A DNA stretch of 7,150 bases. Source: Caldilineaceae bacterium. Lineage in GTDB: Bacteria; Chloroflexota; Anaerolineae; Caldilineales; Caldilineaceae. Location of the stretch: positions 1-7,150 of the forward strand of contig JAPPKT010000262.1 of the NCBI GenBank assembly GCA_028819675.1, written 5' to 3'. Position 1 is the first letter of the stretch. Each line of letters starts with the position of its first letter. The translations under genes and the position numbers were made by a program. Positions 276 through 7,150 of this stretch are shown here, piece by piece. The notes under the pieces are model-generated. The model saw nothing but the letters and a program-made list of their open reading frames with translations. It did no database searches and was not told the DNA's origin.

Positions 276-355
276 AAATTCCAGCCTCCCCTGCCATAAA
301 TCTCCCCTGCCAAACTGTGACCACCCCAGAACGGGACCGCACCCCGAAATTCCAG
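276..355. repeat. 71-bp segment bounded by a 9-bp direct repeat
   Basis: AAATTCCAG occurs at 276-284 and 347-355. Copy B at the right end lacks the intervening sequence: there GCACGTGAATTGCAG runs straight into the promoter region, whereas copy A has GCACGT (267-272), AAATTCCAG, 62 extra bases, AAATTCCAG and then the promoter. The extra part also contains CTCCCCTGCCA twice (286-296 and 302-312). This is either a local duplication or insertion in copy A or a deletion in the ancestor of copy B. It has no coding content. Confidence 0.5.
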
Positions 356-374
356 GGCAAATGCATCCAAATCA

Positions 375-384
375 GTGATATAAT
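375..384 (+). promoter_or_regulatory. Extended -10 promoter of leader copy A
   Basis: GTGATATAAT contains a perfect TATAAT (379-384) preceded by TGA, the TGn extended -10 element recognised by housekeeping sigma factors. No convincing -35 hexamer sits 16-18 bp upstream, which an extended -10 can tolerate. The predicted start is G391, seven bases past the box. The same ten bases occur before copy B, and the surrounding 59 bases (349-407) match it at 46 positions without a gap. Confidence 0.7.
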
Positions 385-390
385 GGCACA

Positions 391-541
391 GTGCTGAAAT
401 GCGAAAACTAATGCCGGGTCAATGTCACCGTCTATCCAGACTCCCGCTGGCAGGAAATCTGCAGGCGAAGAAGGGCCCCTGAAAGACGGTAGACCTCCGA
501 AATTGTGTTTACCTTTAACCTGGTAAAGACAGCGAGGAAAC
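391..541 (+). ncRNA. Structured leader RNA, copy A (unknown family)
   Basis: This is a predicted transcript of about 150 nt from the extended -10 box to the GTG at 542. Compared with copy B it has a conserved 5' tag (391-407, GTGC then AAATGCGAAAA), a 31-nt variable stretch of equal length (408-438), a conserved core (439-490, 41 of 52 identical, containing AATCTG and AGGCGAAG), a second variable stretch (491-524, 15 nt longer than in B) and a conserved end with ACAGCGAGGA (529-538). Possible pairs are GGGTC (416-420) with GACCT (492-496), TAAT (409-412) with ATTG (502-505), a small hairpin GTCT/AGAC (430-433 with 438-441), CGC/GCG (445-447 with 465-467) enclosing GCAG/CTGC, and TTTACC/GGTAAA (508-513 with 522-527) just before the ribosome binding site. 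I could not assign it to a known riboswitch, 6S, SRP, RNase P or tmRNA. It may be a cis-regulatory leader or a mobile-element RNA. Confidence 0.55.
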
Positions 542-544
542 GTG
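534..544 (+). promoter_or_regulatory. Ribosome binding site and GTG start ending leader A, gene apparently lost
   Basis: GAGGA (534-538) is followed after three bases by GTG (542-544). The same layout, GAGGA-TTC-GTG, closes copy B. The frame opened by this GTG runs to 982, but its product is basic and low in complexity and reads straight through the 9-bp and 118-bp repeat blocks, so I do not call it a gene. The likeliest reading is that the leader once preceded a coding region since lost or replaced, or that copy A is a solo element. A short peptide from the first 30-60 codons cannot be excluded. Confidence 0.4.
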
Positions 545-583
545 ATCGAAGTCAAGCGCAAAAGACCAAAACAAGGAAATCCG

Positions 584-677
584 CCCGCTCTGACCCGACT
601 CCGGAATCGGAAAAACCGATGCAAAAGCGTTACGACAACAAGAGCCGGAAAGAAAATTCACCCGCTCTTACCCGACT
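584..677. repeat. Direct repeat pair downstream of leader A
   Basis: CCCGCTCTGACCCGACT (584-600) recurs as CCCGCTCTTACCCGACT (661-677), 16 of 17 identical and 77 bp apart. Between them lies a perfect hairpin ATCGG-AAAAA-CCGAT (606-620). No gene is visible. The pair may mark an old duplication in this repeat-rich spacer. Confidence 0.5.
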
Positions 678-715
678 TTTCCGCCATTTCCGCTATTTCC
701 GCCATATTCCCGCCA
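678..715. repeat. 9-bp tandem repeat TTTCCGCCA
   Basis: TTTCCGCCA (678-686), TTTCCGCTA (687-695) and TTTCCGCCA (696-704) are followed by a degenerate TATTCCCGCCA (705-715). A period divisible by three would allow an Ser-Ala-Ile peptide repeat in one frame, but nothing around it supports a protein. It is probably a simple-sequence expansion in the gene-free region. Confidence 0.7.
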
Positions 716-744
716 AAACACGACCCGCCATGTAAAGGTTCGTA

Positions 745-1122
745 CAACTCTCGCAGACGCTGGAATGAGACCCCCGTCGCCAGCCAGGCCTTTATCACAG
801 CCCATCGCCTGAATCACGTAAATAACAGTTCAGACAAGCCGCAAACACTCGTAAACGCTCATAAACTCTCGTCCAACACTCATACGGCACAACCTGCTAC
901 GGCAAGGCCTCGTCACATCCCATCAGGCAAAGCCCATGAACGGCAGTTCAGACATCATGCAAACACTCGTGAACGCTCATGAACTCTCGTCCAACGCTCA
1001 TACGACACAACCTGCTACGGCAAGGCCCTGTCACATCCCATCAGGCAAAGCCCATGAACGGCAGTGCAGACTTCACGCAAACACTCGTAAACGCTCATAA
1101 ACGCTCATAAACTCTCGTCCTA
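745..1122. repeat. 118-bp tandem array with nested 10-bp motifs
   Basis: Three copies are clear. CAGTTCAGAC starts at 826 and 944 and its variant CAGTGCAGAC at 1062, an exact 118-bp step. GCAAACACTCGT starts at 841, 959 and 1077. Copies 1 and 2 are nearly identical across the AACCTGCTACGGCAAGGCC and CATCCCATCAGGCAAAGCCC parts, while copy 3 ends after its CTCRT block. A worn copy precedes them, with AGGCCTTTATCACAGCCCATC-like sequence (786-806) matching the unit one step earlier. Each copy contains four CTCGT/CTCAT motifs spaced 10 or 11 bp apart (848, 858, 868, 879; 966, 976, 986, 997; 1084, 1094, 1104, 1114). Copy 3 has one AAACGCTCAT unit doubled (1089-1098, 1099-1108). It lacks the repeat-spacer structure of CRISPR and has no coding content. 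It could be a set of helically phased protein sites or a neutral minisatellite. Confidence 0.75.
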
Positions 1123-1423
1123 CACACACACGAGAAAGCCAGTGACCCACCGTCAAGACAAACGGTCCACGATGAATGAAATGCGCGCATCAGCACCCAA
1201 GGCTTTCATGCACAGCACAACTTGACCATTTTGCTCCGCACGGCTCTCAACCTCTTACGCAGACAGAAGAGCGCCCAAACCGGCATCTCTGCCAAGCGTT
1301 ACCGAACCGGTTGCAAAACTGACTATCTCTGGAATGTTCAATCCCAATGAGACGCGATTGCCCTGCCCGTTATTCCCTCACGGTTGCCAAGCGAAGATGA
1401 CTACTGTAAACTGAAAGTTCATA
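1123..1423. other. Gene-free upstream region of the dehydrogenase
   Basis: About 300 bases with no credible ORF. The only notable element is AACCGGTT (1305-1312), an 8-bp palindrome with the centre typical of LacI-family operators, 127 bp before the SDR start. The arms outside the eight bases are not symmetric, so this is weak. TTGCCA (1384-1389) and TGTAAA (1405-1410) could be read as a poor promoter with a 15-bp spacer, but this is not persuasive. Confidence 0.3.
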
Positions 1424-2206: not shown

Positions 2207-2317
2207 CGCACTCTGCCTGCGCTACGTCGAGAGCAAGCACCGGCTCTTGGCAGAAAAAGTTGGAAAGACGAGGAGAAACGAGAGTAATTGCGTAGCGATA
2301 ATCCGAGTTGTCTGTCT

Positions 2318-3154
2318 GTGAAATTGCGCCGCCTGATAACTTCCCTGCTCATTCCACTCGCCCTCCTGTCCGCCTGCTTCGGCCCGGACCTGCCCGGCGC
2401 ACCCCAAATGCCCAAGCTCCCCTCGCCCCGTTCCCTGCCCGGCGTCGACGAACTGCTCGACCAGCTTCCCGGCTTCGATCTCGATCTCCTCAAAGAGCTC
2501 GAACTCCCGGACCTGAGCGATATCGCCGACCTGCCGCAGATGGTCGACCTCCCGACCGTCGACCTCGCAGAAAACGCCATCGCCTTCACCGGCCCGACCG
2601 AAATGCGCATCGAAATCGGCGATTTCATCCGCGGCACCGACATTCAGCTGACTGCCATCGCAGAAGGCCGCGCCCAATTCCTCTTCTCCGGCCTGCGCGC
2701 AGAGCGCATCGCAGGCGACTCTCTTGACTTCGACGGCCCCTGGCCGAACATTGGTGGCGTCGACTACCTGCTGAGACTGCGCGTCTATCGAGTGACCGAA
2801 GACTACGTTCGCGCCGCCGGCGTCCAACGCCTCCTGATCGAGGGCATCCAACCCATACATCAACCCGCCATGGTCCTGCAGGAGAATCCCCTCAAAATGA
2901 CCTATACAGGCTCTGTCGCCCCGGGCGATCTCCTGAAAGGAACAACGTTCGGCTACGTCGGACAGGCGGAACAGGGCGCTGAAATCAGTGGAATCCCCGC
3001 AGGCGACTTCCCCTTTCGCAAGACCGGTGATAGTCTGCGATGGCAGGGCATGCTGCGGCCCGACTTGCCTGCACAGTTCGACCTGCGCATCGTCCATTTC
3101 GGCGAAAACTCAGTCCAGGTGGCTGGCATCGTCTCCATGCAACTTCCCGATTAG
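2318..3154 (+). CDS. Putative lipoprotein of unknown function
   Basis: The protein has 278 residues from GTG 2318. The N-terminus has a short basic start (MKLRR), a hydrophobic stretch and the lipobox LSAC, with Cys20 the likely lipidated residue, so it should be exported and anchored to the membrane. Residues about 21-75 are a linker rich in Leu, Pro and Asp, with LP-x-x-D turns recurring every 6-11 residues. From about residue 80 onward the alternating hydrophobic pattern suggests a beta-rich domain, ending in VAGIVSMQLPD. I recognise no enzyme motif. Start choice is uncertain: TTG 2288 is in frame and has AGGAG (2271-2275) 12 bases before it, but gives a 15-residue n-region; GTG 2318 gives the cleaner signal but lacks an obvious SD. 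It lies 111 bp after the SDR and precedes another membrane-anchored protein, so the two may act together at the cell surface (inference only). Confidence 0.8.
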   Translation: MKLRRLITSLLIPLALLSACFGPDLPGAPQMPKLPSPRSLPGVDELLDQLPGFDLDLLKELELPDLSDIADLPQMVDLPTVDLAENAIAFTGPTEMRIEIGDFIRGTDIQLTAIAEGRAQFLFSGLRAERIAGDSLDFDGPWPNIGGVDYLLRLRVYRVTEDYVRAAGVQRLLIEGIQPIHQPAMVLQENPLKMTYTGSVAPGDLLKGTTFGYVGQAEQGAEISGIPAGDFPFRKTGDSLRWQGMLRPDLPAQFDLRIVHFGENSVQVAGIVSMQLPD

Positions 3155-3244: not shown

Positions 3245-3316
3245 ATGAAGCAGAGAAAGTACGGCCGGCAACGAACAATCGGACCGCCGAGCTCCGGAGA
3301 AAGAAGCAATGGTTGA
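3245..3316 (+). CDS. Candidate 23-residue leader ORF
   Basis: ATG 3245 follows GAGGA (3235-3239) by five bases, a better placed SD than several larger genes here have. The frame encodes a basic, hydrophilic peptide (MKQRKYGRQR...) and stops at TGA 3314-3316, overlapping the ATG of the next gene (3309) by eight bases. This layout would suit translational coupling to the downstream membrane protein. No homology can be claimed and no membrane or signal segment is present. A chance ORF is quite possible. Confidence 0.3.
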   Translation: MKQRKYGRQRTIGPPSSGERSNG

Positions 3317-4142
3317 GGCCATAAGCAACACGGGTACGCTGAGTGTGATCCGGAGGTTCAGACCTCACGCCGACCTCCAGGGAATTCGCGCCGACTATTA
3401 CAACCTTACCGACCTCCAGGGCCAGCCCCTGGCCGGACTCCTTGTGCTGATGGACCGCCGCGGACGGCCCGTGCGCGGCGAAATCCATATGAACAACAAC
3501 ACCGCTGACGCCCTATACGAGATCGCCCTGCGCCAGAGCCTCCGCCTCATCGAAGACCGCTATAAAAGTGACCGTCCCGTTCGTCTCTACCCTCTGCGGA
3601 TGCAACTCAACAGTGACCCCCTCTCGGTTCAGCCCAGGGGCAGCGCCCCAACTCCCGCTATCGCACCGCCGCCCGCGTCGAGCAACCCCCTGCTTCTCGT
3701 CGGCGCCGTGCTCCTCGTTATCTCCGCGCTCTTCAGCGGCTGGTTCCTGAACGAATGGCTCACAGGCGACCTCGCCCGCACCGGAGCGCAAACTACGCTT
3801 TCCGCCGGGTCCTCCTCGGCCGCCGCCGGACAGAATGTCCTCATTGTCGAAACCAACGGTCTCCCTCCCAGTCGCAACGCAATCCCCATGAACGTCGGCG
3901 ACCGTATCCGCCTCCTGCCCGAGTACAAAATCTCATTGCGCACCGAAGCCGGCGCGCAGGCTGGAGTCATCGTTACCCACCTGCAGGACGCCGATCCCAT
4001 GACAATTCTCAACGGCCCCATCTGGCTCGAAGGCAACGCCGATACCATCGTCTGGTGGTATGTGCGCGTCGACAGCGGCGCCGAAGGCTGGGTACCGGCT
4101 AATACAAGTGAACTTACCCTGTTGGAACCTCTCGCCCAATAG
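3309..4142 (+). CDS. Single-pass membrane protein with SH3-like C-terminal domain
   Basis: The protein has 277 residues. The N-terminal part (1-105) is a compact mixed domain with no motif I recognise, followed by a Pro/Ala/Ser linker (108-125), one transmembrane segment (about 128-147, LLLVGAVLLVISALFSGWFL) and a second linker rich in Ala, Gly and Ser. The C-terminal 85 residues have the look of a bacterial SH3 (SH3b) domain: VGDRIRLLPEYKISLRTEAG, a central strand pattern, and the closing WWYVRV...EGWVPA signature. Such domains usually bind cell-wall or peptide ligands. With no signal peptide before the single segment, the N-terminus is probably inside and the SH3-like domain outside. ATG 3309 has GGAGA (3296-3300) eight bases before it. 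It is 26 bp upstream of the sulfatase-like gene, so probably cotranscribed. The function is unknown. Confidence 0.82.
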   Translation: MVEAISNTGTLSVIRRFRPHADLQGIRADYYNLTDLQGQPLAGLLVLMDRRGRPVRGEIHMNNNTADALYEIALRQSLRLIEDRYKSDRPVRLYPLRMQLNSDPLSVQPRGSAPTPAIAPPPASSNPLLLVGAVLLVISALFSGWFLNEWLTGDLARTGAQTTLSAGSSSAAAGQNVLIVETNGLPPSRNAIPMNVGDRIRLLPEYKISLRTEAGAQAGVIVTHLQDADPMTILNGPIWLEGNADTIVWWYVRVDSGAEGWVPANTSELTLLEPLAQ

Positions 4143-5686: not shown

Positions 5687-6751
5687 ATGCCCAAGATTGC
5701 TGCCGATCGACTCGAACGGATCGCAGGACGGCTCATGCAGGCCGCCGGCGCCTCCTCCGCTGAAGCCGCTACCATCGCCCGCCACCTGATCGCCGCCAAT
5801 CTCGCCGGCCACGACTCACACGGTGTCATCCATGTCTCCGGCTACATCGCCTCAATCCAAAAGGGCCACGTGCAGCCCGGCGCCCCTTTCACCATCACAC
5901 AGGAGAGCCGCGCCACAACCGTCGTAGACGGAAACTGGGGCTTTGGATTCACCGTTTCCGAGCGGGCCATGCAGCTGACCATCGACAAAGCCCGCCGCGA
6001 AAACGTCGCCGCCGCCACCGTCGTACGCCAGGGCCACGTCGGCCGCCTGACCGACTACCCCCTCATGGCTGCCGAAACCGGCATGATCGGGCTGATGACC
6101 GCCGACTCCGGCCGCGGCCCCAAGAGCGTTGCCCCGTTCGGCGGACGCGAACCCCGCCTCGGCACCAACCCAATCTGCATCGCCGTCCCTTCCAACCTCG
6201 ACGGCCCCTTCTACATCGACATCGCAACCTCCGCCGTCGCCGGCGGCAAACTGGGCGTTGCCATCCAGCGCAATCAGGCAATACCCACCGGCTGGGTGAT
6301 CGACAGCCAAGGCCGCGCCTCCACAGACCCCGCCGCCGCCCGCAACGGCGGCGCCATGCTGCCCCTCGGCGGTTCCGAAGGCCACAAAGGGTACGGCCTT
6401 TCTTCCATGGTCGAAATCCTTTCGGGACTGCTGACCGGCCTGGGGTTCGGGATCGAACCGACCGGCCGCCACAACGACGGCTGCTTCATGGCCGTCTTTC
6501 AAGTTGATGCCTTCCGTCCTTTGGAAGAATTCAAGCGGGAAGTAACCGAATTCGCCCAATACCTGACCGCAACACCGCCTGCCGAAGGGATCGAACGCGT
6601 CTACTACCCCGGCGAACTCGAATACTTGCGGACCCAAAAAGGCCGCGAGGATGGCATATATGTCGAAGAGAAGACCTGGCACAGGCTTGAAGAACTGGCC
6701 GGCGAACTTGGCGTCGACGAGGACTTCTCCTCTGATCAAAATGGCCGGTAA
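5687..6751 (+). CDS. Malate/L-lactate dehydrogenase family (Ldh2) oxidoreductase
   Basis: The protein has 354 residues, the usual length. This NAD(P)-dependent family is unrelated to classical LDH/MDH. It oxidises 2-hydroxy acids such as malate, L-lactate, sulfolactate or ureidoglycolate, or reduces the matching 2-oxo (or cyclic imine) compounds. Seen: DSHG (43-46) with the conserved His45, RQGHVGR (114-120) with His117, RLGTNP (156-161), the DIATSAVAGGK segment (177-187), IPTGWVID (198-205), TDP (212-214), and GHKGYGLSSMVEILSG (231-246), which shapes the cofactor site. Family members often have Arg two residues after the SHG-V motif; here it is His49. AGGAG (5674-5678) lies eight bases before ATG 5687. 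The gene is 72 bp after the sulfatase-like gene and is the last of the cluster; palindromic repeats follow. If the neighbour handled a sulfo-compound, a sulfolactate-type substrate would be attractive, but this is speculation. Confidence 0.92.
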   Translation: MPKIAADRLERIAGRLMQAAGASSAEAATIARHLIAANLAGHDSHGVIHVSGYIASIQKGHVQPGAPFTITQESRATTVVDGNWGFGFTVSERAMQLTIDKARRENVAAATVVRQGHVGRLTDYPLMAAETGMIGLMTADSGRGPKSVAPFGGREPRLGTNPICIAVPSNLDGPFYIDIATSAVAGGKLGVAIQRNQAIPTGWVIDSQGRASTDPAAARNGGAMLPLGGSEGHKGYGLSSMVEILSGLLTGLGFGIEPTGRHNDGCFMAVFQVDAFRPLEEFKREVTEFAQYLTATPPAEGIERVYYPGELEYLRTQKGREDGIYVEEKTWHRLEELAGELGVDEDFSSDQNGR

Positions 6752-6859
6752 CAAATTCCCCCTTGCCCTAAACCGCGATTTGGCCCGTGCAGACCTGGTC
6801 TTGGGGTCATCGGCGCTGACAGACCGCCCAGCCCGGCCCTTGCCCCTCCCCCAGCACCT
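6752..6859. other. Spacer after the last gene, no terminator seen
   Basis: The bases between the TAA of the Ldh2-type gene and the first right-hand palindrome contain no T-tract hairpin and no credible ORF. A pyrimidine-rich run (6830-6852) precedes the palindrome. Termination, if intrinsic, would have to depend on the two palindromes or lie beyond. Confidence 0.4.
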
Positions 6860-6887
6860 GTAGGGGCACCCCTTGTGGGTGCCCTCG
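6860..6887. repeat. Dispersed palindromic repeat, copy 3 (perfect)
   Basis: GGGCACCC (6864-6871) pairs perfectly with GGGTGCCC (6877-6884) around loop CTTGT (6872-6876). Leading GTAG and trailing TCG are shared with copy 4. The 28 bases are identical to copy 4, 63 bp further on, and both are followed by TTGGGCTGCA (6902-6911 and, from TTTGGGCTGCA, about 6954-6964), so the duplicated unit is longer than the hairpin. It lies 109 bp after the last gene and might protect the mRNA end or weakly terminate it; no T-tract is present. Confidence 0.85.
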
Positions 6888-6922
6888 CCCTCGCACCCAA
6901 GTTGGGCTGCATGCATAGACCC

Positions 6923-6950
6923 GTAGGGGCACCCCTTGTGGGTGCCCTCG
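6923..6950. repeat. Dispersed palindromic repeat, copy 4 (perfect)
   Basis: This is identical over 28 bases to copy 3. The arms are GGGCACCC (6927-6934) and GGGTGCCC (6940-6947) with loop CTTGT. GCACGT (6962-6967) and the promoter of leader B follow closely, just as copy 2 is followed by GCACGT (267-272) and leader A. The palindrome pair therefore belongs to a larger block found at both ends of the window. Confidence 0.85.
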
Positions 6951-6995
6951 TACTTTGGGCTGCACGTGAATTGCAGCGCAATCGCATCAAAAACC

Positions 6996-7005
6996 GTGAT
7001 ATAAT
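6996..7005 (+). promoter_or_regulatory. Extended -10 promoter of leader copy B
   Basis: GTGATATAAT is identical to the ten bases at 375-384: TATAAT at 7000-7005 with TGA before it. The predicted start is G7012, exactly the equivalent of G391. TTGCAG (6971-6976) resembles a -35 box but is 23 bp away, too far to count. Conservation between copies starts about 30 bp upstream of the box, so the promoter belongs to the repeated unit. Confidence 0.72.
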
Positions 7006-7011
7006 ATCCCT

Positions 7012-7147
7012 GTGCCAAAATGCGAAAAGGTACTGCTGGGCGTACTGCCATGAAGCCATGACTCTCGCTAGCTGGGAATCTGAAGGCGAAGCAGAGCCCG
7101 TACAAGACTGTGAACTGCCCAGTACCCAACGAAAACAGCGAGGATTC
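7012..7147 (+). ncRNA. Structured leader RNA, copy B (unknown family)
   Basis: This is the second copy of the element at 391-541, aligned without a gap from the promoter to about 7111 (constant offset 6621). Pairing is stronger here: GGTACT (7029-7034) with AGTACC (7121-7126), a 3-nt bulge GCT, then GGGC (7038-7041) with GCCC (7117-7120), together closing the conserved core. A small hairpin CATG-AAGC-CATG (7049-7060) lies inside the variable part, near the position of the GTCT/AGAC hairpin in copy A. The core carries TCGC/GCGA (7066-7068 with 7086-7088 at its centre), AATCTG and AGGCGAAG. The second variable part is 15 nt shorter than in copy A and lacks its TTTACC/GGTAAA hairpin. The end, ACAGCGAGGATTCGTG, leads into a gene beyond the window, so a cis-acting leader is a fair reading; a mobile-element RNA is the main alternative. 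Confidence 0.58.
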
Positions 7148-7150
7148 GTG
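7140..7150 (+). promoter_or_regulatory. Ribosome binding site and GTG start of a gene outside the window
   Basis: GAGGA (7140-7144) is followed after three bases by GTG (7148-7150), the last codon visible. Spacing and context match the end of copy A (534-544). The product of this gene would decide between the riboswitch-like and transposon-like readings of the leader, but nothing of it is visible. Confidence 0.45.

Follow-up and report, generated by a model that had tools for sequence, protein, structure and literature searches.

The window analysed here, i.e. the whole stretch of 7,150 bp at the beginning of contig JAPPKT010000262.1 from a Caldilineaceae bacterium, encodes a short-chain dehydrogenase (SDR), an enzyme of the sulfatase family, a malate/L-lactate dehydrogenase (ldh) and two further proteins that match no Pfam family; many such Caldilineaceae MAGs come from sponges. 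The two proteins without a Pfam match are encoded at 2288–3154 and 3309–4142, the second one being kept in 18 Caldilineaceae loci at 40–98% identity; the comparison of the protein 3309–4139 with genome contigs gave these 18 loci, all of them from Caldilineaceae, the best one being 98% identical. Besides the genes, the window contains one complete element (element 1, at locus 1) and the beginning of a second one (element 2, at locus 2), the parts of which are as follows:

343..352, unstranded: left 10-bp target-site duplication CCCGAAATTC, from flank comparison
353..1365, plus strand: element 1, 1013 bp, very probably a non-autonomous ISAs1-family derivative, with both terminal inverted repeats, a target duplication and a transposase remnant
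353..367, plus strand: left terminal inverted repeat CAGGGCAAATGCATC, one mismatch against CAGGGCAATTGCATC, with which the left end of ISAs1 is formed in the intact copy of L067
375..384, plus strand: inward extended -10 motif GTGATATAAT, kept in 23 of 27 rows of the alignment that extend this far
391..541, plus strand: the 'leader', interior sequence without detected constraint, aligned in 31 copies, with no structure and a locus-1 rate about that of third codon positions
678..715, plus strand: tandem array of TTTCCGCCA, period 9 (period 11 over 694–715)
826..1106, plus strand: 118-bp tandem duplication, 2.4 copies
843..884, plus strand: 10-bp periodic array of AAACACTCAT, 4.1 copies
1079..1116, plus strand: 10-bp periodic array of AAACGCTCAT, 3.8 copies
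1207..1365, plus strand: remnant of the ISAs1 transposase C-terminus together with the right end, its 159 bp aligning at 81.8% identity with the intact ISAs1 of L067 (E = 3e-37)
1351..1365, plus strand: right terminal inverted repeat GACGCGATTGCCCTG, from end searches
1366..1375, unstranded: right 10-bp target-site duplication CCCGTTATTC, from flank comparison
1384..1412, plus strand: promoter-like site of the SDR gene, TTGCCA-17-TAAACT, outside the element, from a consensus match
6964..6973, unstranded: left target-site duplication of element 2, ACGTGAATTG, with ACATGAAATG at the right end in the L020, L031 and L019 orthologues
6974..7150, plus strand: element 2, 5′ end only, with the left inverted repeat CAGCGCAATCGCATC, the -10 motif (6996–7005) and the leader; it continues past the window

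The sequence-only reading had described 349–544 and 6970–7150 as two copies of a promoter plus structured leader. Its gapless identity counts were reproduced as invariant columns of the alignment of 340–560 with 6961–7150, i.e. 46 of 59 at 349–407, 41 of 52 at 439–490 and 16 of 20 at 525–544, position 349 being aligned opposite 6970 without gaps, and the motif GTGATATAAT is indeed identical in both copies (375–384 and 6996–7005). In local blastn, 146 bp were aligned at 72.6% identity with E = 1e-18, and the block GACTCNCGCTNGCNGGNAATCTGNAGGCGAAG occurs twice in the window as against 0 of 200 shuffles. The duplicated sequence is thereby confirmed as real, the match being beyond chance; its limits, however, were drawn too narrowly. 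In L020, a relative holding both copies, 6984–7855 aligns with 225–1070 at 71.7% identity across 900 columns and, therefore, the duplicated stretch represents approximately the first fifth of a repeat of about 1 kb.

That further copies would be present in related genomes had been expected, and dispersed copies were found by both blast and the family search. The blast pieces—pieces, not copies—number 22, 25, 2, 6, 1 and 5 in the genomes G001 to G006, respectively. With a limit of E ≤ 1e-5, matches were obtained in at least 10 of the 46 genomes in the family of G001, and a class-wide draw yielded matches in at least 8 of 396 genomes, all eight being already in the family list; with at most two candidates per genome scored in the class search and at most 17 in the family search, the copy counts are to be read as floors and the class negatives as weak. 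Several leader matches lie less than 400 bases from a contig start (C44, C114 and C175 in G001; C199, C281 and C375 in G002), as if the assemblies break there. Pattern scans of viral contigs gave 7 and 2 loci, none of which resembles the element in its surrounding sequence as judged by eye.

The 3′ part of element 1, when translated, gives a peptide resembling the end of the ISAs1 transposase. The remnant covers about the last 50 codons, with stops, and there is no intact transposase in element 1; as a protein, the window tail matched no NCBIfam model. An intact ISAs1 copy of 1253 bp was found in L067 (E = 7e-133 in the search of the genomes with the model NF033564, transpos_ISAs1), having the same left end as the elements and an exact 10-bp duplication, GCCCCTTGAC, and its protein matches this model with 443 bits. 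Terminal inverted repeats of the CAGGGCRATTGCATC type are common to the elements and the intact ISAs1 copies, and the target duplication is 10 bp long in both the ISAs1 parent (L067) and the elements (L031, L023 and L074). It should be noted that the target duplication of element 1 in the window (CCCGAAATTC and CCCGTTATTC) is decayed, its orthologues in L031 and L023 having the exact CCCGTAATTC on both sides; a further exact 10-bp duplication is GTAAGCGCAT in L074, and CCCATCTCCC in L043 is seen with a 1-bp shift. In a test for duplications of 8–10 bp, a score of at least 6 was reached by 13 of the 28 elements with both ends placed, as against 4.7% of re-paired flanks, the other 15 scoring below 6; the ends were placed automatically, some of them may be wrong, and several of the elements are orthologous and not all independent. 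Concerning locus 1 itself, the orthologue in L019 is 548 bp long, and the end search did not find the right end of the copy in L020. The comparison with element-free contigs did not reveal a clean empty site at this locus because several of these contigs start only a little upstream and a further insertion is located close by in L024.

The search with NF033564 in six genomes gave 24 matches, of which 21 are fragments of the C-terminus only, and a leader match is located upstream on the same strand at 14 of these 21 loci. Among the 30 transposase loci fetched, the leader is absent from all 12 near-full-length ones, its matches being confined to three loci (L131, L138 and L140), at partial copies. 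The possibility that the leader is the 5′ untranslated region of autonomous ISAs1 was rejected on this ground, and, for the same reason, the leader and the middle, together some 700–850 bp, are not derived from the autonomous ISAs1 copies observed.

Locus 2 offers a comparison of occupied and empty sites. Among the 14 loci with ldh and the gene of a Dak1-domain protein on one contig, the element is present in three (L019, L020 and L031) and absent from 11, absence being read from the spacing of the two flank matches, which is at most 278 bp in all 11 element-free loci. The element 2 orthologues measure 924 bp (L020), 913 bp (L031) and 921 bp (L019), and the start of the element is present but cut off in L021 and in the window. 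In L023, a single ACATGAAATG target is seen by eye at locus 2, adjoined by an unrelated small repeat. This repeat of about 105 bp, CGGGTGTATCCCAAATTATTGTCCG ... ATCTGGGATGCACCCG, lies at about 7938–8043 in L023, beside the element 2 target, and was recognised by eye also in L067 at about 1008–1115. A palindrome-like repeat, GTAGGGGCACCCCTTGTGGGTGCCC, is present in the window as two copies in a unit of about 63 bp (6860–6884 and 6923–6947), and about six successive matches to a unit of this type are found in L020 at 6539–6974, just upstream of copy 2.

Both stretches of the window are thus, with high confidence, the left ends of one MITE-like family that is non-autonomous and non-coding and has ISAs1-related ends, and the conservation of the two stretches is best explained by their descent from one transposable element. 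What the elements have in common with the autonomous insertion sequence of the ISAs1 family are the inverted repeats, target duplications of 10 bp and the final stretch of ~159 bp. Points counting against this reading are the interior not derived from the autonomous ISAs1 copies observed, the window tail without an NCBIfam match, the 15 elements with a low duplication score and the deviating copies described in the next paragraph. An ISAs1 transposase encoded elsewhere would have acted in trans on the ends of the elements and spread the copies, most of which are probably drifting now. The earlier description of the stretch as a possible cis-regulatory or mobile RNA holds for its mobility; the cis-regulatory part is not supported, the promoter-like sites being situated outside the element and kept in element-free relatives, and neither is the RNA part, according to the results given below.

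Some copies depart from the layout of element 1. Leader modules with another promoter-like motif and without the left inverted repeat occur in L024 and L054, and several partial leader matches each are found in L076, L077 and L090. Leader-like modules follow one another in a row in L060 (518–1728), and also in L054, L076, L077 and L090, these being elongated or tandemly arranged versions of the element; in some modules of L024, L054 and L060 the other promoter-like motif is TGTGCTATAAT and the arrays are of the GTCGACTTAC or CGCGACATT type. Distant leader-like matches (profile positions 108–231) in L059 (1431–1550) and L062 (1432–1554) are followed by quite different sequence and may represent an older branch.

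The interior of the elements is characterised by tandem arrays. Within at most 700 bp after the leader, arrays with a period of 9–11 are present in 45 of 45 elements, these being distinct by their first 60 bases with orthologues included; in control tiles of 700 bp from the same lineages, taken away from the elements and, as largely coding, an imperfect control, such an array was seen in 52 of 332, and in shuffled interiors in 13 of 225. The period is exactly 10 in 110 of the 174 array rows and 20 in 27, although the rows can overlap. In the first 110 bases past the leader, the identity at lag 10 is 0.399 (z 23; 62 regions), and the AA/TT/AT steps at lag 10 reach 1.46 times the expectation (z 25). 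The unit sequences differ among arrays and among copies, as illustrated by CCCGACTTTA, AAACGCTCGT, TTTCCGCCA, GTCGACTTAC and GTAGACATTT, most of them corresponding to one helical turn (10 bp) each with the A/T steps in phase. Since the elements are related by descent, the arrays in their interiors are not independent events. It is conceivable, although rather doubtful, that the interior is a selected module of DNA architecture, in which the arrays would bend the DNA or offer sites for proteins in phase, and would so improve the element as a substrate of the ISAs1 transposase beyond its parent.

Co-option of the element by the adjacent genes, as a module of regulation or of chromosome structure, would fit the position of element 1 upstream of the SDR gene and of element 2 upstream of the Dak1-domain gene (in L020), both in the same orientation, as well as the fact that several contigs retain the two elements at corresponding loci. 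The promoter-like sites of both genes, however, lie outside the element and exist also in element-free relatives: the SDR site has its counterpart, TTGCCA-17-TACACT, in front of SDR in L030, which is without the element, the corresponding stretch being covered also for L032, L022, L025 and L024, and that of the Dak1 gene, at 7927–7955 of L020, is present in the element-free L032. Such sites are matches to a consensus and do not prove promoters. With the locus-1 leader drifting, in addition, at the rate of third codon positions, co-option is very unlikely. As regards the promoter that had been assigned to the duplicated stretch, the inward extended -10 motif is real in the sense of its conservation in the alignment rows; a two-hexamer promoter scan of the window does not list GTGATATAAT.

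That the leader might be a structured RNA—a cis-regulatory leader or a stand-alone non-coding RNA with a selected scaffold, borne by the element or independent of it—could be argued from the conserved -10 motif and from the fact that the leader is alignable across 31 copies. Within it, the variability falls to 0.139 around GACTC...GGCGAAG, as against 0.222 and 0.238 in the neighbouring stretches, and at locus 2 the leader is slightly better kept (identity 0.933) than the middle (0.911) and the tail (0.872), a small difference in its favour obtained from three sequences only. Taken as a single sequence, copy 1 folds somewhat better than its shuffles (z -1.59, 18 of 200 being as good), but copy 2 folds worse (z +0.73). 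The alignment of the 31 copies, when folded by RNAalifold, retained 3 pairs at -0.13 kcal/mol with no compensatory changes. The fold of copy 1 can be paired in 59.8% of cells as against 60.4% in shuffles, and that of copy 2 in 75.3% as against 74.7%, a level reached by 44 of 500 shuffles; the covariation score is above shuffles for neither of them. When the partners are slid, fewer cells are paired in either fold, which is expected anyway for a fold taken from one aligned sequence.

The comparison of five locus-1 orthologues (10 pairs) points in the same direction. The identity of the leader is 0.806, that of the promoter stretch 0.825, of the middle 0.80–0.81 and of the upstream flank 0.817, the tail being at 0.891 (with 36% gaps) and the 63 bases between the element and SDR at 0.974; the codon positions of SDR are identical at 0.949 (first), 0.974 (second) and 0.827 (third). 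Purifying selection above the neutral rate was thus not detected at the locus-1 leader, its identity lying next to those of the flank and the third positions. Rfam 15 gave no match in the window at the gathering score, the two weak matches seen at E up to 10 (E 6.7 and 2.5) being far below it, so that the earlier remark that the stretch could not be placed in a known RNA family agrees with the absence of anything credible in this comparison; the structured scaffold, on the other hand, was not supported by the folding and covariation analyses. An undescribed structured RNA is not supported and must be regarded as extremely unlikely, and from the sequence comparisons it is concluded that the leader represents interior sequence in a state of drift. 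Group I and group II introns, bridge RNA and omega RNA were dropped once the inverted repeats and the transposase remnant had appeared, the Rfam comparison being the only test applied to them.

The chance that the leader is the 5′ untranslated region of a small protein starting at GTG (542 and 7148), as might follow from the likeness of AGCGAGGA plus GTG in both window copies and from the frame of 146 codons in copy 1, is practically negligible, as 29 of the 30 other rows have frames of 1–74 codons without a common end (row w2 being cut by the end of the window), 10 of 31 rows have a codon other than GTG in this column, the variation of the leader has no codon-position pattern and the 146-aa product matched no Pfam family, so that the proposed Shine-Dalgarno–GTG coding start opens no conserved frame.

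The non-autonomous family of ISAs1-related elements can be compared with several known systems. ISAs1-family insertion sequences (NCBIfam NF033564) resemble the elements in their terminal inverted repeats, in duplicating 10 bp of the target and in the final ~159 bp, which include the C-terminus of the transposase; the elements differ in being without a transposase gene and in possessing an interior that is unrelated and non-coding and has a -10 motif and tandem arrays of its own. A MITE in the strict sense is short, under about 600 bp. The elements measure 548–1661 bp between their placed ends, with 23 of 28 within 764–1236 bp, and they keep a transposase fragment; being too long for strict MITEs, they are called here MITE-like. 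Prokaryotic MITEs are described as non-autonomous and mobilised in trans by autonomous elements (PMC10969869), and a similar mobilisation in trans seems probable for the Caldilineaceae elements. The nearest published layout found is that of BrickBuilt from Porphyromonas gingivalis, a MITE with an internal minisatellite, present in 19 intergenic copies of up to 991 nt (PMC4596501). Both have a leader, a tandem repeat and a tail in this order, promoter elements inside and the inverted repeats of a resident insertion sequence; BrickBuilt, however, combines a single 23-nt repeat with ends of the IS5 type and lacks a remnant of a transposase (PMC4596501), in contrast to the ISAs1-type ends, the 10-bp target duplications, the transposase remnant and the several ~10-bp arrays with different units of the elements described here. 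The comparison concerns the layout, the inverted repeats printed for BrickBuilt differing by eye from those of the elements. No published account of this ISAs1-related repeat family of Caldilineaceae was found among the titles and abstract openings of the openly accessible papers listed in the literature searches.

Based on the above results, the duplicated stretch belongs to a mobile element of an ordinary type, in which only the ~10-bp arrays of the interior are unusual. The description of a false RNA family has thereby been averted, since diverged copies of a derivative of an insertion sequence can mimic a conserved promoter with a structured leader. The conserved -10 motif may yield a non-coding transcript and may be of importance while the element is active. 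An ISAs1-related repeat family is now documented in Caldilineaceae, and it raises a testable question on minisatellites of one helical turn within hitch-hiking elements.
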